46,483 nucleotides of DNA. It comes from Deltaproteobacteria bacterium. GTDB taxonomy: Bacteria; Myxococcota; XYA12-FULL-58-9. Where the stretch lies: positions 1 through 46,483 of the forward strand of contig JACRCV010000109.1 in the NCBI GenBank assembly GCA_016218825.1, written 5' to 3'. Below the pieces are notes generated by a model. That model saw only the letters and a program-made list of their open reading frames with translations. It had not been told where the DNA came from and searched no databases. Made by a program: the position numbers and the translations under genes. Shown one piece after another: positions 8,743 to 37,207 of this stretch; the stretch's first letter is position 1; every line of letters starts with the position of its first letter.

Positions 8743-8776
8743 CTTCAAACCACCGACCCCACGTTTGGTCGCGCCC

Positions 8777-11541: not shown

Positions 11542-11550
11542 CGGTCACCT

Positions 11551-12501: not shown

Positions 12502-12512
12502 GGTGGTGTTCC

Positions 12513-13289
12513 TCACGGCGCCGGGGCGACGATGGCTTCGATGGGGGGCAGGTCTTTGTACTGCTCGGGGTTCTGCAGCCGGTCGACGTATTCGGCGAAC
12601 TCGGCCGGGTCGTGGTACTCGGTGGCGGCCTCGAGGTCGTCGTTCCAGCCCTGGCCGAGCAGGCTCTTGACGTAGGAGCGCCAGGCGTAGAAGCCCGACT
12701 CGCGGCCTTCGGGGATCATCTTCATCGCCTCGATGTTGTTCAGGGTCTCGAGGGCTTTGTCGGGGCGGTTGGTCATCGCGTAGATCTCGGCGATGATCAG
12801 GTGCGCGGTGCCGTAAGTCTCGTTGACCTTCAACGCCGCCCGCGCCGAGCCGAGCGCCCGATTGAACCACCGCTCGGCGCGCTTCAGCACCTTGGCGTCG
12901 GTCGACGCGGTGCCGTCCTTGCCGGAGAACTTCTCCTCCATGCCCTGGCGGGCGTAGCAGGTCGCCTGCGCCGCGAGCACGTAGGCGTTCTTCGGCTCGA
13001 GCTTCAGCGCCTCGCGATACGCGGTCTGGGCGCCGGGGAAGTTGGCGGCATAGATCGTAAAGCACATCGCGTTGCCCTGCTGGGTCAAGACCACGGCGCT
13101 CTGCGTCGACTGGCTCACGGCCTTGGCGGCCTCGACGCCGGCGGCGCCCTTCTCGCGCTCCTCTTTCTTCTCTTCGGCGGTGGGCTCCTGCTGCGGGCCG
13201 GCGAACGCGCTTGCGCCCAACCCGGGACGTTTGACGCACCCTGTGGTCAGGATGGCGATGAGGACTCCCTGGATGCACTTTCTCAACAT
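12513..13289 (-). CDS. TPR-type lipoprotein
   Basis: The product is 258 residues. ATG 13289 follows GGAGAGG. The signal ends IAILTTGCVK (lipobox). A charged linker (EEKKEEREKG) leads to helical repeats: NFPGAQTAYREALKLEPKN (a clear TPR), a second near AERWFNRALGSARAALKVN, and a third at RPDKALETLNNIEAMK. It is probably a periplasmic scaffold for the neighbouring proteins. The next gene starts 11 bases downstream; the preceding gene ends 33 bases upstream. Confidence 0.82.
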   Translation of the reverse strand: MLRKCIQGVLIAILTTGCVKRPGLGASAFAGPQQEPTAEEKKEEREKGAAGVEAAKAVSQSTQSAVVLTQQGNAMCFTIYAANFPGAQTAYREALKLEPKNAYVLAAQATCYARQGMEEKFSGKDGTASTDAKVLKRAERWFNRALGSARAALKVNETYGTAHLIIAEIYAMTNRPDKALETLNNIEAMKMIPEGRESGFYAWRSYVKSLLGQGWNDDLEAATEYHDPAEFAEYVDRLQNPEQYKDLPPIEAIVAPAP

Positions 13290-13322
13290 GACCTCTCCTT
13301 TTGGACTCCTGGTATTGGAAAC

Positions 13323-14390: not shown

Positions 14391-14427
14391 GTCGCAGCTC
14401 CCACCATCATGTGTGTCGGGCCTTTCG

Positions 14428-15432
14428 TCATGGTGACGCGCTCGCGCCGCAGCTCTGGGAGCGCAGGCGGCCGAAGGCGTCGGGGCGGTCGAAGTCGACG
14501 CTGGTGATCTCCACCTTGATCTGACCGCTGAACCCGGCGCGCTCGCCCGGCGGCATCGCTTCGGTCTCCATGCTGCCGGTGGTCTTCGGGCACAGAAGCT
14601 CGCCGGCGAACACGAACGAGCGTCCCGAGTCGGTGACTGCGCCGGCGCTCGTCGTGTAGATCACATTGGCGCGCACCCGCGCCACCGGCAGCGAGCCGTC
14701 GTTATTCACAGCCGCCACCACCTTGCCCTTGAACGCCGACTCCAACGCCACGCCCTCGACGCGCAGCACCAACAGCGCCGCAGGATAGGCCGCCAAGGCC
14801 TTCTTCGACGGCGGGTGATAGCCCGCGGCGGTCGTGGGCGCGATCTCCTCGACCTCTTCCTCCGCCGGCGCCGCTGGGGTCGCGGTCGCGGCGGCCGTCG
14901 GCGCTGGCTTGGCCGGGGCGGCGTCGAGGCCGGTCGAGGCGACGCGCCAACCTGCCGGGGTCTTCACCAGGCGCACTTCGAAGGTGGTGTCGCGGTAGGT
15001 CCAGTTGATTTGCGCGAGCTCTTCGAGCGCCAGCTCTTTGCGCTTCTTCGCGGCGCGGGGCGGCGGCAGGTCTTTGACCGCGGCGTCGACGCGGGAGACG
15101 ACGTCGAGGAGGGGGGCGACGTCGAGCAGCGAGGCCTCGACCGCGAACACCATCGCGCCCTCGACGGGAGTGGGTTTGCCGTGCTTGAGCTTCTGGGCGC
15201 CCCACGCTTTCTTGACCGGCGGCAGCGCGAGCCAGGCGGGGTCGACGCTGAGCGGCGACGAGACGCCCTCGGCCAACAGCGGCTTCATCGCCATCGGCTT
15301 GTAGGTGCGATAGGCCTGCACGAAGGCGCGGACGACTTTGACCGGCGGCATCGCGGCGTCAGGGGCTGGGTCTCCGGCCTGGCCGAGAGACCACGCCACG
15401 CACAGCGCCCACAACCCGCCTCCCAACGCCAT
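14428..15432 (-). CDS. Conserved hypothetical periplasmic protein, first gene of envelope operon
   Basis: The product is 334 residues from ATG 15432 (signal ALCVAWSLGQAGD). Residues 25-150 contain an NTF2-like-looking helix and strand pattern (VVRAFVQAYRTYKPMAMKPL ... FEVRLVKTPAGWRVASTG). A Pro/Ala/Glu linker (about 175-200) follows, then a second beta domain ending near SQSCGASASP. The frame continues further upstream but lacks a signal there. It starts the minus-strand operon that continues through the FlgO-like, TPR, FlgT-C-like and barrel genes. Function unknown. Confidence 0.72.
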   Translation of the reverse strand: MALGGGLWALCVAWSLGQAGDPAPDAAMPPVKVVRAFVQAYRTYKPMAMKPLLAEGVSSPLSVDPAWLALPPVKKAWGAQKLKHGKPTPVEGAMVFAVEASLLDVAPLLDVVSRVDAAVKDLPPPRAAKKRKELALEELAQINWTYRDTTFEVRLVKTPAGWRVASTGLDAAPAKPAPTAAATATPAAPAEEEVEEIAPTTAAGYHPPSKKALAAYPAALLVLRVEGVALESAFKGKVVAAVNNDGSLPVARVRANVIYTTSAGAVTDSGRSFVFAGELLCPKTTGSMETEAMPPGERAGFSGQIKVEITSVDFDRPDAFGRLRSQSCGASASP

Positions 15433-15534
15433 GGCGGGCCTTCTAGCGAGGGGCGGAGGGAGGGTCAACAACGTTGTGCGTGGAACGATGGGCTCGCGCG
15501 AGGCCGGCCGTCGCAACCACCCGGCGCGCGCCGG

Positions 15535-15732
15535 TTGAGCGAGCGCGAGGAAGACGTCGTGCGTTTGGCGCGCGAGCGGCTGACCATCGCCGAGGTCGCG
15601 GCGCGGATGGGGTGTGCGCCCGGGACGGTGTCGGCGTACTGGCAGCGCATCTTCGGGAAGACCGGTGCGCGCGGGTGGCGCGAGGTGCTGGCGCTCATCG
15701 GCGGCAACAACGACGCTGCGACCTGCCCGTAG
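15535..15732 (+). pseudogene. LuxR-type HTH domain, probably a fragment
   Basis: From TTG 15535 the 65 codons give LSEREEDVVRLARERLTIAE, then VAARMGCAPGTVSAYWQRIF, a complete LuxR/GerE helix-turn-helix. No sensor or receiver domain is present and the upstream frame has no ATG or GTG near. LuxR domains normally sit at the C-terminus of larger proteins, so this is probably the remaining end of a broken regulator, though a small stand-alone HTH protein is possible. It overlaps the 3' part of the truncated toxin on the other strand, marking a recombination scar. Confidence 0.5.
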
Positions 15733-15895
15733 CCGACCACGAACGACGTCCCGGAACACGGTTGGCTCTGTGTTCCTGTCGGCTTCGTGACGAGCGGGCA
15801 GCTACGGCAGCCTGGTCACTAACGACATCGTGTCCAGCGTCACGAAGAGCACGCACGACCGCGAAGTCGCAGTTCTCGTCAGCTAGGAAACGCAC
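15695..15895 (-). pseudogene. Truncated DUF5615 PIN-like toxin
   Basis: The GTG at 15895 begins MRFLADENCDFAVVRALRDA, then GHDVVS, which matches the N-terminus of DUF5615 proteins (PIN-like ribonuclease toxins of about 110-120 residues). After about 28 codons similarity stops; the frame runs on in unrelated sequence to 66 codons. I checked the other two frames and did not find the missing acidic C-terminal motif, so this is a truncation rather than a simple frameshift. It starts three bases after the DUF433 antitoxin gene, the normal order for such a pair. Confidence 0.7.
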
Positions 15896-15898
15896 ACG

Positions 15899-16147
15899 TC
15901 AACCGCCGGAAGCCGCTGCCTTGGGGGGGTGGTCGAAGATCTCTTCGTGGCCAAGCACATCGGCGGCGTAGCGGATCGCGGCCTTGATGTCCTCCGGCTC
16001 GAGCCGTGGGTACGCATCAAGAAGCTCCGCCTCGCTCGCGCCCTCGCTGAGCTTTCGCAGCACGGCTTCGACAGGAATGCGCGTGCCTCGGATCACGGGT
16101 TTGCCCATCATCACGGCCGGGTTGATCTCTATTCGCTCGAGCACCAT
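15899..16147 (-). CDS. DUF433 antitoxin
   Basis: The product is 82 residues. ATG 16147 follows GAGAGGA with five-base spacing; earlier starts (16165, 16210) lack a site. The sequence IEINPAVMMGKPVIRGTRIP, VEAVLRKLSEG and AYPRLEPEDIKAAIRYA is diagnostic of DUF433, the antitoxin partner of DUF5615 PIN-like toxins. It probably still folds and binds DNA, but its toxin partner downstream is truncated, so it may be an orphan. Confidence 0.92.
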   Translation of the reverse strand: MVLERIEINPAVMMGKPVIRGTRIPVEAVLRKLSEGASEAELLDAYPRLEPEDIKAAIRYAADVLGHEEIFDHPPKAAASGG

Positions 16148-16163
16148 GACCGTCCTCTCGCCC

Positions 16164-16192
16164 ATTGTCAGCCGGCCATCGCACCAAAGCAA
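16164..16192 (-). promoter_or_regulatory. Candidate promoter for DUF433 gene
   Basis: On the minus strand, TTGCTT (16192-16187) and GACAAT (16169-16164) are separated by 17 bases. A start near 16157 would leave a ten-base leader that contains the ribosome-binding site. Both boxes are imperfect. Confidence 0.4.
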
Positions 16193-16214
16193 GGGCGAGC
16201 ACGCCGCCAACCCC

Positions 16215-17588
16215 TCAGCCTACCTTGCGCAACGCCTCCTGGATGACGCGGTCGCACTGCGCCGCCGTGGCCCGAAACTCGCGCGACACGCGCCGGTCAT
16301 TGGCGACGAGCGCCCAGAACGACCGCGCGGCGCTCCCCGCGCGCCGCCACCCTTCCACCTGACCAGGGATCGGCAGCGGCGGAACGTACGGACGCGCGAC
16401 GATCTCGCCGCCCTGCGGCGCGAACAACATCGGCAACATGTCGTAGGCCGGCGCGAGCTTCATGCGGCCCTGGTCGAAGAACAGGGTGGCGTTGCCGAAG
16501 TGCCGGTCGGTGTTGCCGATGAACCCCGAGAAGTCCCACCAGAACCCGAGCGCCGCTACGTCGTCCGCTTCAAGCCAGCCGCGTCGGAGCAGCCGGGCAC
16601 CGGCGTCGGGCCAGGAGTCGAGCGCGCCGAAGTACTCGACGTCGATGGCGAACAGCGAGCAGGTGGCCCGCCGTCCGTGGAGGCCTACCCGATCGAAGCG
16701 CTCAACCTCGAGGAATCGTCGCGTCGGGCCGTCCAAGACCCGACTCTTGGCTGCAGGCAGCCCGGCCGCCTGCAGCACGCCGTGGGCGAGGTGCTCAGCG
16801 ACGAGCAGGTCGGCCCAGCGGTCGCCGACCGCCGTGCCGCGCGCCGGCGAGGACTTGACGAGGACGTGCCTCGACGAGGCCGCTCTCACGAGCGTCGCGA
16901 ACTTGGGCTGCTCGCCACCCGCCGACGAGCCCGGCGGCTGGTCCGCGAGCGATTCGCCGGCCAGCCGTTCGTACACCAAGCCGCCGTCGTCGATGCGGGG
17001 CGGCTCCGGGGCTGCCATGCGCTCGCGCATCAGGAGGTCGTGGGCGCTCTTGCCGACCAGCCAGTTCCCGGGATTGTCCGCGCCGGTCTTGGTGAGGGCG
17101 GTGAGCACGTGGTGCTCTTGCCAGTCGGCCAGGCGAGCCGGCACCCCGAGCGCGGCCTGCAGCCGGCGAGCGAGGGCACGGCCGAGGAAGCCTTGCGGCG
17201 TCGAGTCATGGAGGAAGAAGGGGAGGCCGGTGAAGGCGCCGTTGCCGCCGCTTCCTGCCATCCACGCGGCTTGCTTCTGCGCGGCCACGAAGACGAAGCC
17301 CTTGGGCTCGACGGCGAATATTGCTCCCACCTCTTCGGGCGTGCCCGACTCCGAGACCGCGTACAACGGCCAGCGGCTGCCGAGGTCGACGACATCTCTG
17401 GGGGCCGCATAGTAGACGCCGGTCCTCTTCTTGCCGAAGCACACGACCTCGCCGGGGGCCGAACGGATCCATCGCGAGAAGGTAGACCGGTTCGGACCTC
17501 CGAGAGCGTGCCCGAGGTCGACGAAGCGACTCGGGCCGCGGGACCGAAGCAACGCGACAACCCCCCGAGCCCGCAGTGACGTGGACAT
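16215..17588 (-). CDS. HipA-family serine kinase toxin, YjjJ/HipH type
   Basis: The product is 457 residues, close to E. coli YjjJ. The N-terminus (about 1-60) is a winged-helix-like DNA-binding domain (VVALLRSRGPSRFVDLGHAL), absent from classic HipA. The kinase part has the glycine loop GSSAGGEQPKFA, a VLVKSSP lysine strand, the catalytic loop NTDRHFGN and the metal-binding LAPAYDMLP. The HipA family phosphorylates tRNA-loading enzymes and slows growth. YjjJ types carry their own HTH and have no separate hipB gene, and none is present here. ATG 17588 is preceded by an unusually AT-rich stretch. Confidence 0.9.
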   Translation of the reverse strand: MSTSLRARGVVALLRSRGPSRFVDLGHALGGPNRSTFSRWIRSAPGEVVCFGKKRTGVYYAAPRDVVDLGSRWPLYAVSESGTPEEVGAIFAVEPKGFVFVAAQKQAAWMAGSGGNGAFTGLPFFLHDSTPQGFLGRALARRLQAALGVPARLADWQEHHVLTALTKTGADNPGNWLVGKSAHDLLMRERMAAPEPPRIDDGGLVYERLAGESLADQPPGSSAGGEQPKFATLVRAASSRHVLVKSSPARGTAVGDRWADLLVAEHLAHGVLQAAGLPAAKSRVLDGPTRRFLEVERFDRVGLHGRRATCSLFAIDVEYFGALDSWPDAGARLLRRGWLEADDVAALGFWWDFSGFIGNTDRHFGNATLFFDQGRMKLAPAYDMLPMLFAPQGGEIVARPYVPPLPIPGQVEGWRRAGSAARSFWALVANDRRVSREFRATAAQCDRVIQEALRKVG

Positions 17589-20658: not shown

Positions 20659-20687
20659 TAGACATTCATTGTCATCGCGGGTATGAT
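20659..20687 (+). promoter_or_regulatory. Promoter of the chemosensory operon
   Basis: TAGACA (20659-20664) and TATGAT (20682-20687) are 17 bases apart, five of six and five of six matches to sigma-70 boxes. The predicted start near 20694 leaves a leader of about 18 bases before ATG 20712, with only a weak AGG ribosome site. Confidence 0.6.
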
Positions 20688-20711
20688 CGCGGCCTGAACC
20701 CATAGGCGCCC

Positions 20712-21359
20712 ATGGCTGAAGCGCTCAACGATCGGATCCAGGCACTGGAGCGGGAGCTCTCGTCTCTGCGGCGGCATCTCGCGGCGTCGGGTCAGCTCGC
20801 GGCGGCGGTGGTTGGCGAGGCGGGGGCGTCGGCGGCGCCGCGGGCGGTGGTGGGCGAGTCGATCTTGGCGTTTTCGGCTGGTGACGTTCGTCTGGGGTTG
20901 CGGCTCGGCGAGGTGTTGGAGGTGGTGCGGATGGTGGAGCCGACGCCGCTCGCGGACGCGTCGCCCGGGATTCTGGGGGCGATCGACTACCGCGGCACGA
21001 TCATGCCGCTCTTGGATCTCGCGGTTCGTCTGGGGCGGCCGGCGCGGGCGTTCGGGGTGGATTCGAAGATCATCGTCGCGAAGACCGCCGGGCGGCAGTT
21101 CGGCGCCGTGGTCGACGAGGTCCAGGGGCTGGTGCCCGTGACTGCCGACGCCTTTTGTTCCGACGCCAAGCTGTCGATGGGCGAGGTCCCGGTCGAGCGG
21201 CGCTGTTTGTTGGGGGCGCTGCGGGCGGAGGGCGGGCTGCTCCTGGTGTTGGATCTGGCCGGGGTGTTGTCCTGGATCCCGGCCGAGCCTACGGCAGCGA
21301 AGGACGGCCCGGCCGAGAAGGCGCCGCCGGCTCGCCGCAAACGGAAGGACAAGGCGTGA
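20712..21359 (+). CDS. cheW: CheW-like coupling protein
   Basis: The product is 215 residues. A short coiled-coil-like start (RIQALERELSSLRRHLA) leads to a CheW domain at about 48-185: ILAFSAGDVRLGLRLGEVLE, then VV, GAIDYRGTIMPLLDL and QFGAVVDEVQGLV. The C-terminus is a lysine/arginine-rich tail (ARRKRKDKA). It couples receptors to CheA in a chemosensory array. It is the first gene of the operon and overlaps cheR (GTGA). The N-terminal helix and basic tail are additions to the standard CheW. Confidence 0.9.
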   Translation: MAEALNDRIQALERELSSLRRHLAASGQLAAAVVGEAGASAAPRAVVGESILAFSAGDVRLGLRLGEVLEVVRMVEPTPLADASPGILGAIDYRGTIMPLLDLAVRLGRPARAFGVDSKIIVAKTAGRQFGAVVDEVQGLVPVTADAFCSDAKLSMGEVPVERRCLLGALRAEGGLLLVLDLAGVLSWIPAEPTAAKDGPAEKAPPARRKRKDKA

Positions 21360-22792
21360 TCTCGCGGCCCCACGAATCGGAGGCCAAGGTGACGGCGGTG
21401 GCGGACACGGCGGTGTTCGAGCCGGTGACCTTCATCGGCGACCATCTCAAGCGGCACTGTGGGATGTCGTTTCGCGAGCACAACCTCGACGATTTGGCGC
21501 GCGCCGTGCGTCGCGCGGCGGCGCAGTTCACCGCGGGCGACCCGTTGCGGCTGGCGGCGTTGTTGCCCGGGACCGAAGGGGAGCAGGCGCTCGGTTGGCT
21601 GGTGCGGGAGCTGACGATCGGCGAGAGCTACTTCTTCCGGATCTTCGAGCAGTTCACGACCCTGCGGCGGGTCATTCCGACGCTCCACGACGAGAAGGTC
21701 AAGGCCGGCGATCCCGAGTTTCGGGTCTGGAGCGCCGGCTGCGCCGCCGGCGAAGAGGCGTACTCGCTCGCGATCTTGTTGCGGCAGAGCCTGCCGCGGG
21801 GCACCCCGGGTCGAGTGATCGGGACCGACATCAACCCCGAGTTTCTGTCGCGGGCGGCGGCGGGGGAGTACTCGAGCTGGTCGTTGCGCGGTCTCGAGGA
21901 GCACGAGCGCGCCGCGTACTTCGAGCAGACCGGCGACAACCGCTTCTTGCTGCGCGCCGACTTCAAGACCGGGGTGAGCTTCCGCTACCACAACCTGCGC
22001 CACGATCCGGCGGTGGTGCTCGTCGGCGGCGCGTTGTTCGACGTCATCTTGTGTCGCAACGTCCTGATCTACTTCGAGCCCGACATGGCCGCAGCGGTCG
22101 CCCTGCAGCTCGCCGGGGTGCTGGGGCGGGGCGGCTATCTCCTCTTTGGCCCCTCCGACCCGGTGCCGGCCGAGCTCGAGGGGCTCGAGCGCTGCGAGGA
22201 CAACGCCGGGATCATGTTCCACCGGCCGTTCGTAGCGCCGCCGGTCACCGCGGCGACACGGCAGCGGCGCCGCCCGAAAGGCGCCGGGCGCGCGTCAGCG
22301 AAGGCCCCGCCCCCCGGACGCCGTACGGTCGTGACGCGGCCGGCGGCGGTCGCGCCCGAGCCCGCGACACCGGTGGACGCGGCCGCGCTCCGCCGGGCCG
22401 AGGCGCATCTGCTCGCGAATCGTGGTCAGTTGGACGCTGCGGTGGCGAGCGTCGAGAGGTGGTTGTCGACCGCGCCGACGTCCTTGGACGCGAGCTATCT
22501 GCTCGCGTCTCTAGAGCGCCGCCGCGGCAACGACGGCCGGGCGTTGGAGCTGTTGCGGCAGTGCCTCTACCTCGATCCATGCTACGTGCTGGCGCACTTC
22601 GCCACTGCCGAGATCCACGCCGCCGCCGGCAACCGCGACGCGGCCCGCGGTGGTTTCAGCAACACCTTGGATCTGCTAGCGAATCTCGACGATGAGGCGC
22701 TGCTCCCCGGCTCGGACGAGATCACCGCGGGGTGGCTGAAGCTCGTCGTCAACGGCCGTCTGCGGCGCGCGGAGACGGAGGCGAAGCGGTGA
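21356..22792 (+). CDS. cheR: CheR methyltransferase with C-terminal TPR region
   Basis: The product is 478 residues from GTG 21356, which overlaps the cheW stop. The CheR domain (about 20-290) has YFFRIFEQF, the SAM-binding VWSAGCAAGEEAYSLAI and the late motif ILCRNVLIYF. A Pro/Arg-rich linker (about 300-340) leads to TPR-like helices (LDASYLLASLERRRGNDGRA, LELLRQCLYLDP, FATAEIHAAAGNRDAA). It methylates glutamates of the receptor with S-adenosylmethionine. CheR-TPR fusion is also the design of FrzF in Myxococcus. The next cheW starts inside its stop (GTGA). Confidence 0.93.
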   Translation: MISRPHESEAKVTAVADTAVFEPVTFIGDHLKRHCGMSFREHNLDDLARAVRRAAAQFTAGDPLRLAALLPGTEGEQALGWLVRELTIGESYFFRIFEQFTTLRRVIPTLHDEKVKAGDPEFRVWSAGCAAGEEAYSLAILLRQSLPRGTPGRVIGTDINPEFLSRAAAGEYSSWSLRGLEEHERAAYFEQTGDNRFLLRADFKTGVSFRYHNLRHDPAVVLVGGALFDVILCRNVLIYFEPDMAAAVALQLAGVLGRGGYLLFGPSDPVPAELEGLERCEDNAGIMFHRPFVAPPVTAATRQRRRPKGAGRASAKAPPPGRRTVVTRPAAVAPEPATPVDAAALRRAEAHLLANRGQLDAAVASVERWLSTAPTSLDASYLLASLERRRGNDGRALELLRQCLYLDPCYVLAHFATAEIHAAAGNRDAARGGFSNTLDLLANLDDEALLPGSDEITAGWLKLVVNGRLRRAETEAKR

Positions 22793-23406
22793 GGCCGGTG
22801 CCAAGACGGGCGAGTGGTGCCGCGATCGACTGGACGTCGATCTACACCCGCCTCGACGAGGTCGAGCGCAAGGTCAAGAGCGTTCGGGCGGTGGCGCCGG
22901 AGCGCGTGCACGAGATCTTGCGGCGCCGAGCGCTGGAGCTGTCGCGCACCGACGTCCAGGGCGATTCGCGACGCTCGACGGCGCGGCACAGCATGCTGGT
23001 GTTCAGCGTCGTCAACGGCCAATACGCGGTCGCCGCCGAGCTCGCGAGCGAGATCTTGCCGCTCGGCCGGCTGACGCCGATTCCGCTGGCGCCGAGCTAC
23101 GTCGCCGGGGTCACCAGTCGCCGCGGCCAGATCCTGATGTTGCTCGACCTGCGGCGGTTGTTGGGCTTGGCGGCGCTGCACGCCGCCGACCTGGTCAAGG
23201 TCATCGTCATCGGCCAGGCGCCGACCGAGGTCGGGCTGTTGGCGGAGAACGTCGAGGGCGTCGTCGAGGCCGCGGACAGCGACGTCGCGGCGCCGCTCTT
23301 GGCCGGGGACTACGTTCGGGGCATTGTCGGCGGCAAGATCACGCTGCTCGACGCCAAGAAGCTACTGCAATTAGGTGCGGCAACCGCCTACCCGCAGACG
23401 AGGTAG
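22789..23406 (+). CDS. cheW: Second CheW-like coupling protein
   Basis: The product is 205 residues from GTG 22789 (GTGA overlap with cheR). The N-terminus (about 1-65) has a basic coiled region (RLDEVERKVKSVRAVAPERV) and the CheW domain follows: MLVFSVVNGQYAVAAELASE, YVAGVTSRRGQILMLLDLRR and VGLLAENVEGVVEA. Having two CheW proteins in one operon mirrors FrzA and FrzB. The stop lies 55 bases before the two-CW gene. Confidence 0.9.
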   Translation: MRPVPRRASGAAIDWTSIYTRLDEVERKVKSVRAVAPERVHEILRRRALELSRTDVQGDSRRSTARHSMLVFSVVNGQYAVAAELASEILPLGRLTPIPLAPSYVAGVTSRRGQILMLLDLRRLLGLAALHAADLVKVIVIGQAPTEVGLLAENVEGVVEAADSDVAAPLLAGDYVRGIVGGKITLLDAKKLLQLGAATAYPQTR

Positions 23407-23461
23407 GCCTTTGTCGCTCTCGCCCCTCGCCGCCCGGCGCGGGAGTGGGCAGGAGACAGTG

Positions 23462-23851
23462 ATGGCAACCAAGAAGACAGCGAAGAAGGCAACGAAGAAG
23501 GCAACGAAGAAGGCAGGCAACAAGAAGGTCAGCCGGCGAGCGGCGGTCGCAAAGGCCAAGCCGAAGAAGGCCGCGCGCCGGTCGGCGGCACCGTCGCCGG
23601 CCGCGGCGTTTCAGGTCGCGGCGCCGGTGGTCGCGATCCCGTGTTGGCAGTACAAGAAGTGCGGCCGCGAGCCGGGCGGCGTCAAGATCGCGGAGCTCGG
23701 CATCTGCCCGGCGTATCCGAACCACGGCCGCGACTGCTGGATGGCCGCGGGGACCTTCTGCGGCGGCCAGGTGCAGGGCACCTACGCCGAGAAGCTCGGT
23801 AATTGCCAGAAGTGTGAGTTCTACCAACAGGTGATGAGCGGCATCGTTTGA
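23462..23851 (+). CDS. Two-CW domain protein with histone H1-like lysine-rich tail
   Basis: The product is 129 residues from ATG 23462 (GGAG at -11). Residues 1-40 hold 14 Lys and 4 Arg in TKKA-type repeats, like a histone H1 tail and encoded by a near-perfect 12-base tandem repeat. Residues 60-120 form a two-CW domain: C61-W62, C67, C82, C92-W93, C100, C115 and C118 with [17 protein letters not shown] and NCQKCEFY. Two-CW domains are small cysteine modules often linked to signalling proteins; the cysteines suggest metal or redox binding. The tail could bind DNA. It sits between cheW and the receptor gene, so a role in the array is likely (inference). Confidence 0.85.
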
Positions 23852-23877
23852 CCGCCGAAGAGCGAGGAACGTCGACC

Positions 23878-25245
23878 ATGTCAGAGACCGGTGAGAAAGT
23901 CGCGACGGGTGCCAGAGCTCGGGGCAGGAAGAACGCCGGCGTGCCGGCGGCAGGGCGCGGGCCCGACCTCGAGCTCGAGGTGAAGCGCCTGCGGGTCTAC
24001 GCCGAGAACGTCGACAAGCAGGTGATGTTGTTGGGGAACGAGTTGGCGTTCGCCAACTGCGTCAAGTACGGGCTGGTGGAGCCGTTCTTCACCACCGACG
24101 CGGCTTTCAACGTCACCTACATCAACGGCAACATGCTGGCGCTCTGCGGTCGCAAGCGCGACGCCTCCAAGCTGACGCTCGACGACGTGTTGCGCGTCGA
24201 TGAAGAGGACGTCGTCGCCGTGGTGCAGGGCTGCGCCAAGACCGGCAAGCCGGCGATGGGCATCAAGGCGACGTTGCACGACGCCGAGGCGGTGCGCCGG
24301 CGTTTCTTGATCAACGCCGGGCCGCTGAAGAAGTCCACCGGCGAGATTGTCGGCATCTACTGCATCCTCCAGGACATCACCGATCTCGAGGGCCTGGAGG
24401 AGCGCAATCGGCTCTTCGACTTAGTGCGCGAAGCGACGGTGACGCTGCGCACCGCGGTCTCTCAGATCTTGAGCACGATCGCGGAGCAGAACGCGAGCTT
24501 GAGCGAGCAGTCGGCGGCGGTGGCCCAGACCACGGCGACGATCAAGGAGACCAGTCAGGCGGCGCAGCAGACCGCCGAGCACGCCCAGAGCGTCATCGAG
24601 TTCGCGGATCGGGCGGAGGAAGTGTCGGGAGAAGGGCAGCACTCGGTCGAGCGCGCGGTCGCCGCGACCAAGGAGGCGCACGACCGGGTGGTCGGCATCG
24701 CCGACAGCGTCGTCGAGCTCTCGGAGCAGGCGTCGCAGATCGGCGAGATCGTCACCACGGTGAGCGAGCTCGCCGACCAGACCAACATGTTGGCGCTGAA
24801 CGCCTCGATCGAGGCCGCCAAGGCGGGAGAGTACGGCAAGGGCTTCGCGGTGGTCGCGGTCGAGATGCGCAAGCTCGCGGAGCAGTCGCAGCGCTCGACG
24901 CACGAGATCCGCGGCATCCTCGGCGAGGTGCAGAAGGTCGTGCGCCAGGTGGTGAAGGCCACCGAGGACGGCAGCGCCAAGGTGGACGAGGGCGTCAAGC
25001 TCTCCGGGGTCGCGGGCGAGAACATCGACAAGCTGGCGCACACGATGGTCGAGTCGTCGCAGGCGGCCAAGCAGATCGCGATGTCGGCGCGGCAACAGTC
25101 GGTGGGCTTCGACCAGGTCTCGAAGGCCATGGGCAACATCGCCCAGGCCACCACCGAGTCGGTCGCCGCGGTGCGGCAGCTGGAGTCGGCGGCCCGCGAC
25201 CTCCGCGGCCTCGCCGAACGGCTCACGGAGCTGGTCCAGGGCTAG
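23878..25245 (+). CDS. Soluble methyl-accepting chemotaxis protein with PAS domain
   Basis: The product is 455 residues. ATG 23878 is chosen for its AGGA site; a TTG at 23848 is possible. A basic N-terminus ([18 protein letters not shown]) leads to a PAS domain at about 60-170 ([20 protein letters not shown] ... [11 protein letters not shown]). The signalling domain has the hairpin tip [20 protein letters not shown], then [16 protein letters not shown]. No membrane span is present, so the receptor is cytoplasmic. Soluble receptors with basic N-termini include FrzCD, which binds the nucleoid. The ligand is unknown; PAS could sense redox state or a cofactor. Confidence 0.93.
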
Positions 25246-25249
25246 AGCC

Positions 25250-27544
25250 ATGCCGCTCGACGTCAACAAGCGCCGGCAGCTGCTCGAGATCTTCCGCGAA
25301 GAAGCGGTGGAGGGTCTGCGCGTCATCAGCCGGAGCCTGATCGCCTGCGAGCAGGCCGATTCGCCCGAGGCCCGTAAGCAAGCGCACGACGAGGTGCGGC
25401 GTCACCTGCACAGCCTCAAAGGGTCGGCGGCCGCGGTCGGGTTGATGGAGCTGCAAGCGCTGATGCACGAGCTCGAGACCTTCCTCGGACCGACCTCGCC
25501 CGAGGACGGTCGGCAAGTCGACATCGCGCTCGCCGCGGTGGAGACCGCGGAGGCCTGGCTGCAGCGCGGCGTCGCCGGCGAAGCCATCAGCGCCGAGGAG
25601 GTCAGCGCCGCGCGCCAAGCGCTCACCGCGCCAGCCACGGCACCCGCCAAGGCTGCGGCGTCACCACCGCCGGCGGTTGCGGCCCCGGCGCCGGTGGCGT
25701 CACCGGTCGTGGCCCCGGCCGCGACGTCTGCAGCAGCGCCGGCGGCTCTCGAGCCAGGTCGGGAGGGGGGCGCGTCGCCGGCGCCGACGGTCCAGGAAGT
25801 CGCGGTGGCGGCGGCGGCCCCGGCGTTGATGCGGGTGGCGACCGAGCGGCTCGATGATCTCCTCGGCAAGGGTGAGGAGCTGGTGGTCGCGGGGGCCAGG
25901 CTCCGGCCCCAGGTGCAGCGCCTCGCCGACCTGGCGGCGGAGATCGAAGCGGTGTTGTTCGAGGTGCGCCGCGCCGAGCGGGCGCGGCGTCGCGGCGGCG
26001 AGCGCGGCGGCAACGACGGCACGCCGCTGACGGCGTGGCGGGAGCGCCTCACCGAGATCAAGAAGCGCCTGACCGGCAGTCGCTTCGAGGTCGCCGCCGA
26101 CCACGAGCGGCTCTCGACCTTGACCACGACGCTGCTCGACGCAGTGCGGGTGATGCGGATGTTGCCGGTCGGCGAGGTCCTGGAGAGCTACGAGCGCGCG
26201 GTCCGCGAGCTGGCGCGCGACCAGGGCAAGAACGTTCGCATGGTGGTGCAGTGCGGCGACGTGCGCCTCGACAAGCGGGTGCTCGACGCGGTGCGGGCGC
26301 CGCTGTTGCACCTGGTGCGCAACGCGGTCGCCCACGGCATGGAGACCCCGAGTGAGCGCCTCACGGCCGGCAAACCGCCGGTCGGCACCTTGCTGCTGTC
26401 GTCGGAGACCCGCGGCAACCGCGTGGCGATCGAGGTCTGCGACGATGGCCGTGGCGTCGACGTCGACGCGGTGCGCCGGGCGGCGACCGAGCGCGGCCTG
26501 GTGCCGGCCGCCGCGGTCGCCTCGTTGTCGGCGGCGGATTCCCTGAACCTGATCTTTCATCCGGGCCTCTCGACCCGGCGCGAGGCCGACACCGCGGCCG
26601 GGCGTGGCGTCGGGCTGTCGGTGGTGTACGAGACCATGGTGCAGCTGCGCGGCGACGTGCGGGTCACGACCACCGCCGGCGGCGGCACGATCTTCAGCCT
26701 GCTCTTGCCCCTGACCTTGGCCGCGACCCGCGGGCTCTTGGTGGCGGTTGGCGGCGAGGTGTTCGCGTTGCCGGTGCCGTCGGTCGAGCGGGTGTTGCGG
26801 GTAGCGGCGACCGACGTCCACCGGCTCCAAGGACGGGAGACGATCGACGACGGCCTCGGGCCGATGCCGCTCGTCGAGCTCGCGTCGCTGTTGCAGCGGG
26901 TCAGCACCGCCGACAAACGCGGCCGCCGCGCCGCGGTCGTCGTGATCACCGCCGATGGGCGGCTGGCGCTCTTGGTCGACAAGATCTTGGACGAGCACGA
27001 GATCATCATGCGCGACCTACCCGGCGGTCTGTCGCACATCGACGTGCTGGCGGGCGGCACCCTCCTCGAGGACGGGCGGGTGGTGCCGGCGCTGAACGTC
27101 GACGGCTTGCTGCGCGCCGCCGCCGCGCGTCCGGTGGCGGCGACGGTCGCGAAAGCCGACAGCCGCCGGATCGTGGTCGCCGACGACTCGCCCACCACCC
27201 GCAGCTTGATCGCCGGCGAGGTCGAGGCCGCCGGGTTCGTGCCTCTCGCCGCCGCCGACGGCCAGCAGGCGCTGCAGCTCTTGGATGACAATGACGCGGT
27301 CGCCTTGATCTCCGACGTCCAGATGCCCAACCTCGACGGCCTGGGGTTGGTGCGCGCGGTGCGCGCCAACCCGCGGATCAAGGACCTGCCGGTGGTGCTC
27401 GTGACCTCGAGAGACTCGGAGGTCGACCGCCAGCTCGGCGCCCAGGCCGGGGCCGACGCCTACCTCATCAAGAAAGAGATCACCGGCGAGCGACTCCTCG
27501 GGGTCCTGGGCCAGCTGTTGCGCCGCAGCGGGAGGGCCACGTGA
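25250..27544 (+). CDS. cheA: Hybrid CheA histidine kinase with C-terminal receiver
   Basis: The product is 764 residues. An Hpt domain with phospho-His H54 (HLHSLKGSAAAVGL) is followed by a Pro/Ala linker (about 125-185) and no recognisable P2. The dimerisation region precedes the ATPase, with N-box HLVRNAVAHG, G1 DDGRGVD and G2 GRGVGLSVV. A CheW-like P5 is followed by a receiver from about 639 (VVADDSPTT, phospho-Asp D689 in ISDVQMPNLDG). The architecture matches FrzE (CheA-CheY). It starts four bases after the receptor stop and overlaps cheB (GTGA). Confidence 0.95.
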   Translation: MPLDVNKRRQLLEIFREEAVEGLRVISRSLIACEQADSPEARKQAHDEVRRHLHSLKGSAAAVGLMELQALMHELETFLGPTSPEDGRQVDIALAAVETAEAWLQRGVAGEAISAEEVSAARQALTAPATAPAKAAASPPPAVAAPAPVASPVVAPAATSAAAPAALEPGREGGASPAPTVQEVAVAAAAPALMRVATERLDDLLGKGEELVVAGARLRPQVQRLADLAAEIEAVLFEVRRAERARRRGGERGGNDGTPLTAWRERLTEIKKRLTGSRFEVAADHERLSTLTTTLLDAVRVMRMLPVGEVLESYERAVRELARDQGKNVRMVVQCGDVRLDKRVLDAVRAPLLHLVRNAVAHGMETPSERLTAGKPPVGTLLLSSETRGNRVAIEVCDDGRGVDVDAVRRAATERGLVPAAAVASLSAADSLNLIFHPGLSTRREADTAAGRGVGLSVVYETMVQLRGDVRVTTTAGGGTIFSLLLPLTLAATRGLLVAVGGEVFALPVPSVERVLRVAATDVHRLQGRETIDDGLGPMPLVELASLLQRVSTADKRGRRAAVVVITADGRLALLVDKILDEHEIIMRDLPGGLSHIDVLAGGTLLEDGRVVPALNVDGLLRAAAARPVAATVAKADSRRIVVADDSPTTRSLIAGEVEAAGFVPLAAADGQQALQLLDDNDAVALISDVQMPNLDGLGLVRAVRANPRIKDLPVVLVTSRDSEVDRQLGAQAGADAYLIKKEITGERLLGVLGQLLRRSGRAT

Positions 27545-28626
27545 TCGTCGTTCTCTTGGTGGCCGCGCGTGCCGACGCCCGCGCCGCGGCGCGCGCCGCC
27601 CTCGAGAGCGCCAGCGACATCGCGGTGTGCGGCGAGAGCGGCAGCGCGCGCGACATCGAGCGCCTGCTGCAGAAGTTCCGCCCCGAGGTCATCATCCTCG
27701 GCAGCAGCCTCGGCAAGGCCGTGCTCCTCGAGGTCACCGAGAGGATCATGCAGGAGACCCCGACCGCGGTGGTGGTGCTCGAGGACGCCGGGCCGGAGGT
27801 CAGCGACCAGGCGGGGTTCGAGGCGCTGCAGCGCGGCGCGGTGGAGATCGCCCGCAGCCCGGCCGGGGTCGACAGGGCGCGCGCCAAGAGGCTCTCGGCC
27901 GAGCTCGTCGACACCGTGCGGATGGCGAGCCGGGTGCGTTTGATCCGCCGCCGGCCGGTGGTGACGCCGGCCGCGAAGGGCGCGGGTCGTGCGTCGGCGG
28001 TGCGGGCGCTGGTGGCGATCGGCGCGTCCACCGGCGGGCCGCCGGCGTTGGTCCAGATCTTGAGCGCGCTGCCGGCCGCCTTCAGCGCGCCGATCCTCGT
28101 GGTGCAGCACATGACCGACGGTTTCAGCGAGCAGTTCGTCAGCTGGCTGTCGAGCATGGTGCCGCAGCGGGTCATGATCCCCAAGTCGGGAGAGGTCCCC
28201 GAGCCCGGCGTGGTCTACGTCGGCCAGGAGGGCCAGCACCTCGGCGTCAACGCCAACGGCACGCTGCGGGTCTCCGACGATCCACCGTTGAACGGCCACC
28301 GGCCGGCGGCGACCGTGCTGTTCGAATCCCTGGCCGGCTCGAGCATCTCCAACCGCGTCGGGGTGATTCTGACCGGCATGGGTGACGACGGCGCGCGCGG
28401 CCTGGTGGCGCTGCGCCGCTCCGGCGGTTACGTGCTGGCGCAGGACGCGGCCTCGTGTGTCGTCTTCGGCATGCCACAGGCGGCGATCGCGCTCGGCGCC
28501 GCGAACGAGGTCGCGGCCCTCGACGACATCGGACCGCGCCTGTTGGTGCTGATGCTCGACGACACCGCGCGCCAGGACGATCAGAGCCCGGGCCCGGCAC
28601 GGCGCCGGAAGCGGGTGGAGTCGTGA
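27541..28626 (+). CDS. cheB: CheB methylesterase with degenerate receiver domain
   Basis: The product is 361 residues from GTG 27541 (overlapping the cheA stop). The C-terminal esterase (about 155-340) has the catalytic triad S163 (GASTGGP), H190 (VVQHM) and D283 (LTGMGDDGARG). The N-terminal domain folds like a receiver but lacks the acidic pair, and the phospho-acceptor Asp is replaced (VIILGSSLGK, G54). It therefore cannot be switched on by phosphorylation in the standard way. It removes methyl groups from the receptor; its control may be constitutive or by a different partner. Confidence 0.92.
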   Translation: MIVVLLVAARADARAAARAALESASDIAVCGESGSARDIERLLQKFRPEVIILGSSLGKAVLLEVTERIMQETPTAVVVLEDAGPEVSDQAGFEALQRGAVEIARSPAGVDRARAKRLSAELVDTVRMASRVRLIRRRPVVTPAAKGAGRASAVRALVAIGASTGGPPALVQILSALPAAFSAPILVVQHMTDGFSEQFVSWLSSMVPQRVMIPKSGEVPEPGVVYVGQEGQHLGVNANGTLRVSDDPPLNGHRPAATVLFESLAGSSISNRVGVILTGMGDDGARGLVALRRSGGYVLAQDAASCVVFGMPQAAIALGAANEVAALDDIGPRLLVLMLDDTARQDDQSPGPARRRKRVES

Positions 28627-29987
28627 CCGGTCTGCCGGCTTTCAAGCCGTTTCGCCTGGTGCAGAAGGTGCGCGAGGACGGCAAGATCGTGTTCTACGAC
28701 GCGGCGTTCATGCGCGGTACCACGACGCGCCCGGTGGTGTTGAAGGTGTGGCCGACGGCGATCGGCGGCCTCGACAAGCTCGAGGCGCAGCAGTTCGAAG
28801 ACGCGCGCGCCGCCACCGCGCATCCGCACGCCAACGTCGTCGCGGTGTGTGACTTCGGCTGGAACGAGGGCATGAGCTACCTGGCGATCGACTGCGAGCG
28901 CGACCAACGCGACCTCAACAAGCTGCAAAAGCGCGCCCGGGTGCGCAAGCACGGCGTCGACGTCACCGGCGCCGTCAGCATCGCGGTCGAGACCTGCCAG
29001 GCGATGCAGCACCTCGCGAGCAGCTTGCCGGAGGTCAAAGGCGTCAAGCCGATGGTCACGCCCCTCGACATCTGGGTGAGCACCCAGGGCGGCGTCAAGG
29101 TGGTGCCGGTGCGCAGCTTCTTCGCCAGCGCGTTGTCGGCGCGTCAGGTGTTGTACTACCTCGCGCCCGAGCAGGCGGTCGGCGGCGCGGCCACCGAGAA
29201 GAGCGCGGTGTTCGTAATCGCGTCGCTGCTCTTCGAGCTGTTGTGCGGCGAGAAGTTGCTCGGCGAGGGCACCGAGACCGAGATCGTGCAGCGGATGCTG
29301 GAGATCGACACCGACAAGGCGGTCGCCGCGCACCCCGAGATCCCGGCGGCGCTGCAGCCGGTCTTGAGAACCGCCCTCAGCCGCGAGCCCCAACGCCGCC
29401 AACGCGACCCGGCGGCGCTCTCTGCCGAGCTCGCCCAGAGCGTCGGCGCGGCGGTCGTCGAGCACCGCGCCGCGGCGATCCGCGACCTGATCGCCGGCCT
29501 GTTTCCGGAGGAGGCGGCGAGCGCCGGCGCGCTCGGAGAGCTGACGCCGTCGTTCGGGGTGCGGTTGCCGATTGCCGGCTCCGGGCCGGCGCCGGCCGGG
29601 CAGTGCCGCCACAAGGTCCTGGTCGCCGATGACTCGTCCACGATCCGCGCGGTCATCAAGGTCTACCTGGTCGGCAACCAGCTCGACTATCTCGAGGCCG
29701 CCGATGGCCGCGCCGCCTTCGAGCTCGCGCGCCGCGAGCTGCCCCGCCTCATCATCTCCGACATCAACATGCCGGAGCTCAACGGCCTGGACCTGTGCCG
29801 CAAGGTGAAGGCCGACGCGACGCTCGCCAAGACCCCGTTCGTGCTCTTGACCTCGAAGAAGGACGACGAAGACCGACGCCTCGGCGCCGACGCCGGGGCC
29901 GATGCCTACCTCACCAAGCCGGTCGGCTCGGACGAGCTCGAAGAGGTCATCCAGCGCTTGCTGGGGATTACCTTCAAGAAGGCCTAG
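28623..29987 (+). CDS. Pseudokinase-receiver fusion, probable output of the chemosensory system
   Basis: The product is 454 residues from GTG 28623 (overlaps the cheB stop). Residues 1-270 align with Ser/Thr kinases: VVLKVW has the beta-3 lysine K41, YLAPEQ near 179-184 matches the APE motif, and EKSAVFVIASLLFELLCGE matches helix F. The catalytic HRD is absent (MVTPLDIWV near 144-152) and DFG is replaced by PVR near 162, so it is a likely pseudokinase. An intact receiver follows from about 328 (VLVADDSS, D380 in ISDINMP, LLTS, YLTKPV). CheA could phosphorylate it, turning the pseudokinase into a signal-dependent binding module. The stop overlaps the opposing GGDEF gene. Confidence 0.85.
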   Translation: MTGLPAFKPFRLVQKVREDGKIVFYDAAFMRGTTTRPVVLKVWPTAIGGLDKLEAQQFEDARAATAHPHANVVAVCDFGWNEGMSYLAIDCERDQRDLNKLQKRARVRKHGVDVTGAVSIAVETCQAMQHLASSLPEVKGVKPMVTPLDIWVSTQGGVKVVPVRSFFASALSARQVLYYLAPEQAVGGAATEKSAVFVIASLLFELLCGEKLLGEGTETEIVQRMLEIDTDKAVAAHPEIPAALQPVLRTALSREPQRRQRDPAALSAELAQSVGAAVVEHRAAAIRDLIAGLFPEEAASAGALGELTPSFGVRLPIAGSGPAPAGQCRHKVLVADDSSTIRAVIKVYLVGNQLDYLEAADGRAAFELARRELPRLIISDINMPELNGLDLCRKVKADATLAKTPFVLLTSKKDDEDRRLGADAGADAYLTKPVGSDELEEVIQRLLGITFKKA

Positions 29988-30991
29988 GGCGCGGGCTGCT
30001 CTTCGTCGACCACGACGCAGTTGCGGCCGGCGCGCTTGGCGCTGTAGAGCGCGGCGTCGGCAGAGGCGAACAGGCGCCGAATCAGGCCGCTCGGGTCGAA
30101 GCGCTGCAGCTCGCCGTTGGCGCTGGCGATCGTCACGCAGGAGACCCCGACGCTGATGGTGACCGGCGTCAGTCCCATGGTGTCGGCTTGGACCGCGGCG
30201 CGGATCTTCTCGGCCACGACGCGGGCGCCGTCCAAACCGGTGTGGGGAAGGATCACCGAAAACTCTTCGCCGCCGAAACGGGCCAGCACGTCGCTGGTGC
30301 GGATGTTGGCGCGGATGGTCTCGGCGACCGCGCGCAGCACCCGGTCACCCTGCAGGTGGCCGAGCTCATCGTTCACCGCCTTGAAGTGATCGATGTCGAG
30401 CATCAGGCAGGAGACGGTCGGCGGGCCGCCGCGGCTCATCTGCTTGACGTGCTTGCCGACGATCTCGAACAGGAAGCGGCGCGAGTAGGCCCCGGTCAGC
30501 TCGTCGGTCATCGCCAGCTGCTGCAGCCGAAGCTGGGCGCGGCAGATCGTGACCTGGCACCAGACCCGGGCGAACAGGATCCCGGGCGAGTACGGCTTGG
30601 TGACGAAGTCGTTGCCGCCGGCGTTCAGCGCCGCGACCACCATCGACTCGTCGTCTCGGTGCCCGGTGAGGAAGAGCACCGGGATGTGGGCGAGCCCCGG
30701 ATCGGCCTTGAGTCGACGGCAGGTCGAGATCCCATCCATCCCCGGCATCTCGATGTCGAGGATGATGCACTCCGGCAAGTGCGTCTGGCTCTGCGCCTGC
30801 GCCAGACAGGCTTCGCCGCTCGCGGCCATCTCCACCAAGAAGCCTTTTTCCTCGAGGTCGAGGCGCAACGATTCGCGGATCGTGGGGCTGTCATCGACGA
30901 CCAGGACCCGGCCGGGCTCACCGCCTTTTGCCGTCAAAGACTGCGTAATCGCCCTCTCTTTGCTCCCTGTCCAGCCACCCCGACCGGGCAA
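29984..30991 (-). CDS. Response regulator diguanylate cyclase (REC-GGDEF)
   Basis: The product is up to 335 residues. The TTG at 30991 opens the frame; a TTG at 30937 behind GAGAGGG is also possible. The receiver (about 28-145) is intact: VLVVDDSPT, ILDIEMPGMDG, LFLTGH, FVTKPY. The GGDEF domain (about 165-325) has the active RFGGEEFSVI and, five residues earlier, an RTSD inhibitory c-di-GMP site. It makes cyclic di-GMP when phosphorylated. It is convergent with the chemosensory operon, sharing the CTAG that carries both stops, so it may be a second output (inference). Confidence 0.92.
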   Translation of the reverse strand: MPGRGGWTGSKERAITQSLTAKGGEPGRVLVVDDSPTIRESLRLDLEEKGFLVEMAASGEACLAQAQSQTHLPECIILDIEMPGMDGISTCRRLKADPGLAHIPVLFLTGHRDDESMVVAALNAGGNDFVTKPYSPGILFARVWCQVTICRAQLRLQQLAMTDELTGAYSRRFLFEIVGKHVKQMSRGGPPTVSCLMLDIDHFKAVNDELGHLQGDRVLRAVAETIRANIRTSDVLARFGGEEFSVILPHTGLDGARVVAEKIRAAVQADTMGLTPVTISVGVSCVTIASANGELQRFDPSGLIRRLFASADAALYSAKRAGRNCVVVDEEQPAP

Positions 30992-33429: not shown

Positions 33430-35226
33430 TCACCGGCCGAGCCCCGCCGGCACCGACGCCAACACGCTCTCCGGAATCGGCGCGTGGCGGGCGCGCAAGA
33501 ACTCGCCGAGGCTCTTCGCCATCGGGTCGACGCGGGTCGAGGCCGCGACGCCGTCGCCCAGCAAGCCGTGGATCACAAACAGATGACTCGCGAGGTTCGC
33601 GAGCGTGTGCCGCTCGACCACCAGGTCCTTCGCCTCCGGCAACAGCTCCCGCAAGCGCGTGACCGACAGATACGCGTCGAGCCACAGAAAGGCCGCCGGA
33701 CTCCGCGCCCACACCCCCAAGGTCGCGTTGCCGCCTTTGTCGCCGGAGCGCGCTCCGCACACCCGTCCGAGAGGTGTCGGTGTCGCCGGGCCCGGCGGGG
33801 TCGCAAGGATCACCGGCGTCGCGATCTCAGGAGGCGTGCCGCTCCCGGCCGGCGGCGGCGGGACAAGGATCTCGCGGCCGTCGATCACGACCCGCTCCCG
33901 CAAGACCGCGGCCGGCACCAGCGCCGGCCAGAGGACGCCGTACGGCGAGGCGTCGCCGGGCGGCGCGGTGAGGAAGAAGCCCGGGTAGCTCGCGAGCGCC
34001 ATCTCCACGGCCTTGCCGCTCCAGGCGCGCCCGACCTTGCGCGCGTCCGGGTCCTTCACCACCACGCGCAAATAGGCGAGCGCCGCCTCGTTGCTCTTCG
34101 GGTCGTCGTGGTCGGCGCGCATCAAGTCGACCCTGGTCTCGGCGAACTGCCGCCGCCCGCCACACAGCTGCCACAGGGTCGCTTCGGCGACCTGCGCCTT
34201 GGCGTCGACGTCGAGGCCCGCCAGGACCAAGGTCATCTCGTTGCGAAAGCCGCCGAGGTAGTTGATACAGACCTTGGTGGTCTGGGGCGGCGGCTCGCCC
34301 TTGACGCCGGAGACCCGCACCCGATCGACGCCGGCCGCCGCCAACGCGATCGAGTCGAAGCGCGCGGTGGCGTCGGGGTTCAGGTAACGCGGCCCTTGGA
34401 TCTCGTAGAGCAGCTGCGCGGTCACGGTCTCCACCGTGACCATGCCGCCGGTGTTCGGGTGCTTGGTCACCACGAACGAGCCGTCGGCGTGCATCTCCAC
34501 CAGCGGAAAGCCGACGTGGCCGAGGTCCGGCACCTCGGTGAAGAACGAGTAGTTGCCGCCGGTGCACTGCGCGCCGCACTCGATCACGTGGCCGGCGACC
34601 ACGGCGCCCGCGAGTCGGTCCCAGTCGTCGCGCGCCCAACCGAACTTCCACGCCGCCGGTCCGACCGCGAGCGCCGCGTCGGTGACCCGGGGACAGATGA
34701 CGACGTCGGCGCCGGCGTGCAGCGCTTCGACGATACCCCAGGCGCCGAGGTAGGCGTTGGCGGTCAGCACCGGGCGCCCGAGCGTGCTCAAGGGACGGCC
34801 GTGGTCGAGGTGGGCGAGCGGGTGGCCGCTCGCTTGCAGCTCGGCAAGGCGCGGCAGCAGGTCGTCGCCCTCGATATGGGCGACGGTGGCACGGACGCCG
34901 AGGCGGGTCGCCAGCTCGTTGACGGCGCGGGCGAGGCCGCCGGGGTTGAGGCCGCCGGCGTTCACCACGATCTTGATGCCGCGGGCGACAGCGGTGGCGA
35001 GGACCTCTTCGAGCTGCCGCAGGAAGGTCTTCGCGAAGCCGCCGCCGCCTTTCTCGCGGTCGCGGTGCAAGATCATCAGGGTGAGCTCGGCGAGATAGTC
35101 GCCGGTGAGCACGTCGATCGGCCCGCCCTCGACCATCTCGCGCGCCGCGCTCGCCCGGTCGCCGTAGAAGCCGCTGCAGTTGGCGATCCGCAACACCTCG
35201 CCCTTCGTGGCGTGGCTCGAGGTCAC
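33430..35226 (-). CDS. AtuA-like protein (DUF1446 with ferredoxin-fold C-terminus)
   Basis: The product is 598 residues from GTG 35226, three bases after the biotin carboxylase stop. Residues 1-450 form the DUF1446 domain (ANCSGFYGDRASAAREMVEG, VNAGGLNPGGLARAVNELA, VICPRVTDAAL). The C-terminal 110 residues (GRVCGARSGDKGGNATLGVW) match the AtuA-like ferredoxin-fold domain. In Pseudomonas, AtuA is needed for acyclic terpene use, but its reaction is not established. Its place in this operon links it to branched acyl-CoA breakdown. Confidence 0.9.
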   Translation of the reverse strand: MTSSHATKGEVLRIANCSGFYGDRASAAREMVEGGPIDVLTGDYLAELTLMILHRDREKGGGGFAKTFLRQLEEVLATAVARGIKIVVNAGGLNPGGLARAVNELATRLGVRATVAHIEGDDLLPRLAELQASGHPLAHLDHGRPLSTLGRPVLTANAYLGAWGIVEALHAGADVVICPRVTDAALAVGPAAWKFGWARDDWDRLAGAVVAGHVIECGAQCTGGNYSFFTEVPDLGHVGFPLVEMHADGSFVVTKHPNTGGMVTVETVTAQLLYEIQGPRYLNPDATARFDSIALAAAGVDRVRVSGVKGEPPPQTTKVCINYLGGFRNEMTLVLAGLDVDAKAQVAEATLWQLCGGRRQFAETRVDLMRADHDDPKSNEAALAYLRVVVKDPDARKVGRAWSGKAVEMALASYPGFFLTAPPGDASPYGVLWPALVPAAVLRERVVIDGREILVPPPPAGSGTPPEIATPVILATPPGPATPTPLGRVCGARSGDKGGNATLGVWARSPAAFLWLDAYLSVTRLRELLPEAKDLVVERHTLANLASHLFVIHGLLGDGVAASTRVDPMAKSLGEFLRARHAPIPESVLASVPAGLGR

Positions 35227-35229
35227 GAG

Positions 35230-37203: not shown

Positions 37204-37207
37204 CGCC

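Follow-up and report, generated by a model that had tools for sequence, protein, structure and literature searches.

The locus described here raises the question of what a cytoplasmic chemosensory array could control when its operon ends in a gene for a receiver joined to a kinase-like domain that has lost most catalytic motifs. In the window—that is, the whole stretch of DNA analyzed, of 46,483 nucleotides, which constitutes an entire contig of a genome of 6.5 Mb—eight genes (20712-29987) lie in an operon extending over 20659-29987; and we propose, on the grounds set out below, that this chemotaxis-like machine probably steers a kinase-shaped protein instead of a motor.

An earlier note on this DNA had described eight genes on one strand, in the order cheW, cheR-TPR, cheW, two-CW, soluble PAS receptor, cheA-REC, cheB, and kinase-like-REC. 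All eight were found on the + strand with the domains there named when the products were compared with Pfam and NCBIfam (Table 1), the Pfam matches comprising CheW twice, CheR with a weak TPR, PAS with MCPsignal, Hpt-HATPase-CheW-REC, CheB, and Pkinase-REC. After the starts had been re-set, the four junctions with four-base overlaps likewise recorded in the note corresponded to GTGA overlaps at 21356-21359 (cheW1/cheR), 22789-22792 (cheR/cheW2), 27541-27544 (cheA/cheB), and 28623-28626 (cheB/last gene); and a fifth, between the two-CW and the receptor genes, is possible if the receptor starts at the TTG at 23848 and not at the alternative ATG at 23878. The one clear promoter of the note, for its part, is the sole promoter-like match in the 10.6 kb between 20450 and 31100, where 0.2 matches were expected in shuffled sequences; a search of Rfam gave no match. 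In view of the domains, the overlaps, and a lone promoter-like site against that expectation, we consider the operon to be real and more than the product of chance.

Table 1. Coordinates of the operon features and of the convergent neighboring gene, with the matches on which each assignment is based.
Feature	Coordinates	Strand	Evidence
Promoter-like site, TAGACA-17-TATGAT	20659..20687	+	10/12 consensus positions
cheW1, 215 aa	20712..21359	+	PF01584 4e-21; 43% identity to G063 counterpart
cheR-TPR, 478 aa, GTG start	21356..22792	+	PF01739 1.5e-41, weak TPR; 41% to G063, 41% to G164
cheW2, 205 aa, GTG start	22789..23406	+	PF01584 1.2e-20; 48% to G063
Two-CW protein, 129 aa	23462..23851	+	NF045718 6e-24; 67-68% to G063 and G164
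Soluble PAS receptor	23848..25245	+	PAS_4, MCPsignal 1e-36; 52-56% to G063 and G164
CheA with C-terminal receiver, 764 aa	25250..27544	+	Pfam domains; sister of G063 CheA 100/99
CheB, 361 aa, GTG start	27541..28626	+	PF01339 1e-57
Putative pseudokinase-receiver, 454 aa, GTG start	28623..29987	+	Pkinase 5e-5 and intact receiver
REC-GGDEF, convergent	29984..30991	-	GGDEF 2e-36, REC 1e-27

Elsewhere in the window, and all on the - strand, a gene for an OpgC-like membrane acyltransferase is overlapped at its end by a class A beta-lactamase-like gene (PF13354; 31084-33334); the genes for AtuA, a biotin carboxylase, a carboxyltransferase, and an acyl-CoA dehydrogenase (33433-39975) make up an operon for degradation of the acyclic terpene or leucine type; and a protein with a HipA C-terminal domain, which is a HipA-type kinase, is encoded at 16218-17588.

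A search for the two-CW family, which gave matches in 11 of 195 genomes, led to two sister operons: a complete one in another family of the phylum (G063:C113; L145), with eight genes in the identical order, and a partial one in a third family (G164:C1108; L151), which, unlike that of the window, starts with a CheY-like gene but otherwise keeps the order, two-CW and PAS receptor genes included, up to cheA, in which its contig ends; a single complete sister operon was thus found. The identities to the window were 37-56% for the che genes, 67-68% for the two-CW protein, and 32% for the last gene, in the G063 operon. The window and G063 were joined in the CheA tree at 100/99, all three loci in the receptor tree at 100/100, and the sister loci in the CheR tree at 99/97. 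Moreover, a profile of the receptor N-terminus, when run against the 195 genomes, recovered these three loci at E<1e-78 and the next match at 4e-9, which gap defines a sharply bounded and rare sub-branch; in a genome of the same genus (G006, 86% complete) we found neither the receptor (best match 1.6e-7) nor a two-CW match. The two-CW protein, which the earlier note had taken for an addition, is thus no one-off, since it is common to all three loci; and the pairing of a two-CW gene and a kinase-receiver gene beside cheA, which the note had proposed to seek in other genomes, is present in G063. There the last gene, which overlaps cheB by ATGA, encodes a Ser/Thr kinase with all the catalytic motifs fused to a receiver.

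Two-CW genes were observed in other settings as well. In L146 (G173:C192, 744-2746, - strand), on a short contig without a che gene, a two-CW gene immediately precedes a gene for a REC-Ser/Thr kinase whose motifs are intact, so that the pairing with a kinase-receiver recurs; and in L142 (G007:C289, 9036-13122, - strand) a small two-CW gene lies near receiver and histidine-kinase-like genes.

Among the signaling parts, CheA has an intact Hpt motif (HSLKG), intact ATPase boxes, and all its receiver residues, and is without a P2 domain. CheB keeps the methylesterase Ser/His/Asp motifs, while its receiver lacks the phosphoacceptor Asp and gives no Pfam Response_reg match, which degeneracy is of the same kind in the CheB of G063. 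The receptor contains a PAS domain and two methylation-like sites and is without a transmembrane segment (the top 19-residue mean hydropathy being 1.16); its arm measures about 20.4 heptads from the tip to the C-terminus, from which length we would place it in roughly the 40-heptad class. The class of "alternative cellular function" (ACF) systems is recognized by a CheR-TPR, a CheA with REC and without P2, and a multidomain response regulator encoded in the same cluster (PMC3447774, PMC10782961), all of which are found in the window operon, as judged by gene content and domains.

The two-CW protein scores 84 bits against the curated cut-off of 35 for NF045718 and carries the two CW motifs and the further cysteines that define this domain; with seven Cys in all, it is probably a metal-binding accessory. 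Its N-terminal 60 residues contain 18 Lys/Arg and no acidic residue. FrzCD binds the nucleoid through a histone-like basic tail (PMC5716589), and since the window receptor lacks a basic start (7 K/R versus 7 D/E in 45 residues) while the two-CW protein possesses one, the latter may tether the array to DNA or the nucleoid through a comparable tail; which idea we treat as a lead only, because the tails of the G063 and G164 two-CW proteins are short.

We then come to the product of the last gene, which the earlier note had called a pseudokinase with a receiver. Alignment to StkP and to nine kinase-receiver proteins agreed with that description: the kinase-like domain has lost the Gly loop, the HRD motif and the following Asn, the DFG motif, and the F-helix Asp, its alpha-C Glu is replaced by Asp, and Lys41 and APE are kept. 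Thus, of the features that mark an active Hanks-type Ser/Thr kinase (Gly loop, VAIK Lys, HRD..N, DFG), the Lys alone is retained, whereas HRD..N and DFG are kept in 98 of 100 kinase domains sampled from the phylum, the window domain being one of the two exceptions (a scripted DFG match in this protein was an unrelated early string and was discounted). Homology to kinases, for its part, is indicated by the StkP match at 4e-12, and PknB was the best match in a fold search with a low-confidence model; AlphaFold gave a pLDDT of 40 from the single sequence, and upon the addition of two distant kinases modeled only the C-lobe. By its kinase homology and its lost catalytic residues, therefore, the domain looks like a pseudokinase. 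In codon-position G+C, the pseudokinase part (0.69/0.45/0.94) and the receiver part agree, which implies that the reading frame has been maintained.

The receiver of that protein retains all its residues (DD, D, T/S, K). When compared with the last gene of G063 by the same aligner, the kinase domain was 27% and the receiver 43% identical; in another comparison the receiver was 45% identical both to that of the G063 kinase and to a stand-alone CheY (L113) adjoining another ACF-type cheA. That CheY groups with the window and G063 receivers (SH-aLRT 90), which grouping suggests that the receiver descended from the CheY of an ACF-type array. The kinase domain, in contrast, had a branch of 9.6 against a median of 0.24, too long to be placed; in view of that extreme divergence, the argument for descent from a G063-type kinase is drawn from position, domain order, and receiver kinship, and not from the kinase tree. 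With the kinase domain as query, the phylum and the genome contigs yielded nothing beyond generic Ser/Thr kinases (20-32% identity), and the plasmids only PknB types. The kinase searches had at first suggested that the kinase-receiver output was a one-off, which notion the two-CW family search overturned through G063. The kinase of that sister operon, with its intact motifs, is apparently competent, and the pseudokinase accordingly looks like the derived state.

A full-length search with the G063 kinase-receiver revealed at least eight more kinase-receiver genes among the matches listed: two in ACF che operons of another CheA branch (G077, L218; G074, L220) and one separated by about 2 kb from a che cluster, on its cheA side (G155); three others had no che gene in the vicinity, and the contigs of the remaining two were too short to judge. 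With che loci taking up little of these genomes, such genes look enriched at che loci among the matches listed. The G077 and G074 operons resemble that of the window in comprising cheR-TPR, cheW, mcp, cheA-REC, and a cheB with a degenerate receiver, followed by an intact kinase-receiver gene; but their CheA forms a distinct branch (whose joining with the window CheA was not rejected, p 0.25), they are without a two-CW gene, and their kinase-receivers belong to another receiver group. Since the ACF operons of G063, G077, and G074 all end in kinase-receiver genes, the control of Hanks-type kinases by chemosensory systems is probably a recurrent feature of the phylum, the window being a catalysis-free derivative. 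For the L061 and L062 kinases, no che genes were found within the stretches examined. In L222 (G154) and L223 (G113), kinase-receiver genes lie beside Hpt-REC-REC genes and without che genes, which arrangement could reflect a phosphorelay to a Ser/Thr kinase that is independent of any chemosensory system.

As to the known systems with which the operon could be equated, the likeness to Frz put forward in the earlier note holds for the broad ACF kind and the cytoplasmic location: the Frz system of Myxococcus xanthus, a complete locus of which type is present in the genome of a relative (L115) and makes Myxococcota very probable as the phylum, shares the soluble receptor, the two CheW proteins, the CheA-REC, the CheR-TPR, and the degenerate CheB receiver. 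The specific kinship, however, was not borne out by the trees of CheA and receptor that the note had recommended. The FrzCD-type receptors (100/99) and those of the window group (82/98) are separate, and the window CheA does not fall with FrzE, although that joining was not formally rejected (AU p 0.054). In addition, FrzZ, the output of Frz, is a REC-REC protein, a type absent from our operon, where a kinase-like-REC stands last; and cheR-TPR closes the Frz cluster, while the gene order of the window is closer to that of the Wsp and Rhodospirillum centenum Che3-like operons. That this operon is orthologous to Frz proper, with gliding or pilus polarity as its target, is, on this evidence, very improbable. 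A more serious contender is a Wsp-type c-di-GMP system, in which the true output would be the REC-GGDEF protein encoded convergently beyond the operon, with the pseudokinase-receiver as a modulator or phosphate sink. Wsp (in Pseudomonas, and on the Azoarcus plasmid pAZKH, L090) has cheW, cheR-TPR, cheW, cheA-REC, cheB, and a multidomain response regulator in the same order; the REC-GGDEF gene shares 4 bases, at its stop, with the end of the pseudokinase-receiver gene, and so ends inside the operon; the translation contains GGEEF, with RTSD upstream as a possible I-site; and the nearest relatives of its receiver among those compared are, with weak support, the output receivers of other ACF loci. 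This protein could consequently be a candidate second output, and the other possible taker of the CheA phosphate. Nevertheless, its gene is on the opposite strand and does not belong to the operon, in which it is the pseudokinase-receiver that follows cheB, and conservation of the REC-GGDEF cannot be shown because the G063 contig stops 187 bases past the kinase gene. Furthermore, Wsp carries its REC-GGDEF within the operon, begins with the receptor gene, lacks a two-CW gene, and has a detectable CheB receiver and a membrane-bound receptor, whereas the window receptor has no hydrophobic segment; and the window CheA stands apart from that of Wsp, even if their joining was not rejected (p 0.19). 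We therefore regard the Wsp alternative as unlikely, though less so than the Frz one.

A different doubt concerns the pseudokinase-receiver itself, which could be a kinase in decay, or else a phosphate sink, with no effector role: all the catalytic motifs are gone, and the kinase domain diverges from that of G063 far faster than does the receiver. Yet the 454-codon open frame, the normal codon-position bias of the kinase part, the overlap with cheB, and the conserved receiver speak against decay; and a pure sink would have no need of a kinase domain. We judge this explanation to be improbable, standing between the other two alternatives. That the pseudokinase-receiver is the output, as the earlier note had maintained, gains from its occupying the place of the output regulator in the sister operons. 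After cheB there stands a REC-GGDEF in the Azoarcus Wsp and a REC-HK-REC in contig C66 of the same genome; and in G074 and G077 the kinase-receiver lies one or two genes beyond cheB. The C66 locus (L075, G000:C66:9001-29000, 7761-17415), with cheR-TPR, cheW, mcp, cheA-REC, cheB, and REC-HK-REC, is a second ACF operon of this genome; its sister is an operon on a Niveispirillum plasmid, and it resembles R. centenum Che3.

Among the systems that have been studied, the closest precedent for a CheA-gated output of the kinase type is that same Che3 system, which governs cyst formation in R. centenum and also has two CheW proteins, CheR, CheB, and CheA-REC; its output, CheS3, is of the kinase type and gated by a receiver, which CheA3 phosphorylates (PMC3868531). 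CheS3, however, is an active histidine kinase that passes phosphate to CheY3 (PMC3868531), whereas the window has a Ser/Thr-kinase-like pseudokinase, together with a two-CW gene and a soluble receptor. Our preferred reading—that of a membrane-free ACF array with a receiver-gated kinase output, ancestrally a Ser/Thr kinase, whose catalysis was lost in the lineage of the window—we hold to be reasonably probable. In the corresponding scheme, of which we infer from sequence every phosphotransfer and binding step as well as the direction from kinase to pseudokinase, the PAS receptor and the two CheW proteins would control the autophosphorylation of CheA at His54, and CheR-TPR and CheB would reset the methylation of the receptor; with its usual Asp missing, CheB would not be switched by its own receiver. 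CheA would pass phosphate to the receiver of the last protein and also to its own, which is probably a sink or brake, as has been demonstrated for the CheA3 of R. centenum (PMC3868531). The ancestral output would have been a Ser/Thr kinase under the control of its receiver, a state that G063 still seems to preserve; in the window, where catalysis is lost while reading frame and receiver are kept, phosphorylation of the receiver would instead switch a binding surface, either scaffolding or allosteric, and not an enzyme. The fuller version, in which the cytoplasmic Che array of a hitherto undescribed ACF sub-branch directly gates a Hanks-type Ser/Thr kinase by way of a fused receiver, and the window holds a non-catalytic phospho-switch along with a two-CW nucleoid tether, we put forward tentatively, at somewhat below even chances.

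A survey of CheR-TPR clusters from 2012 lists as outputs HK, GGDEF, EAL, HPT, AAA, HTH, cyclase, and Ser/Thr phosphatase, with a Ser/Thr protein kinase absent from among them (PMC3447774). The kinase-receiver output is to that limited extent new, in comparison with the 2012 survey, and an earlier mention, for example in a 2018 survey of myxobacterial chemosensory systems, may exist. The rare ACF sub-branch with a kinase-receiver output we consider to be genuine, with the window as its pseudokinase version. A kinase-receiver at or near the place of the output in several lineages would wire a chemosensory array directly to Ser/Thr phosphorylation and, if this is true, bacterial His-Asp and Ser/Thr signaling would be joined; and with the sister pair, in which one operon has a motif-complete kinase and the other a pseudokinase, the function of a bacterial pseudokinase output can be tested directly.
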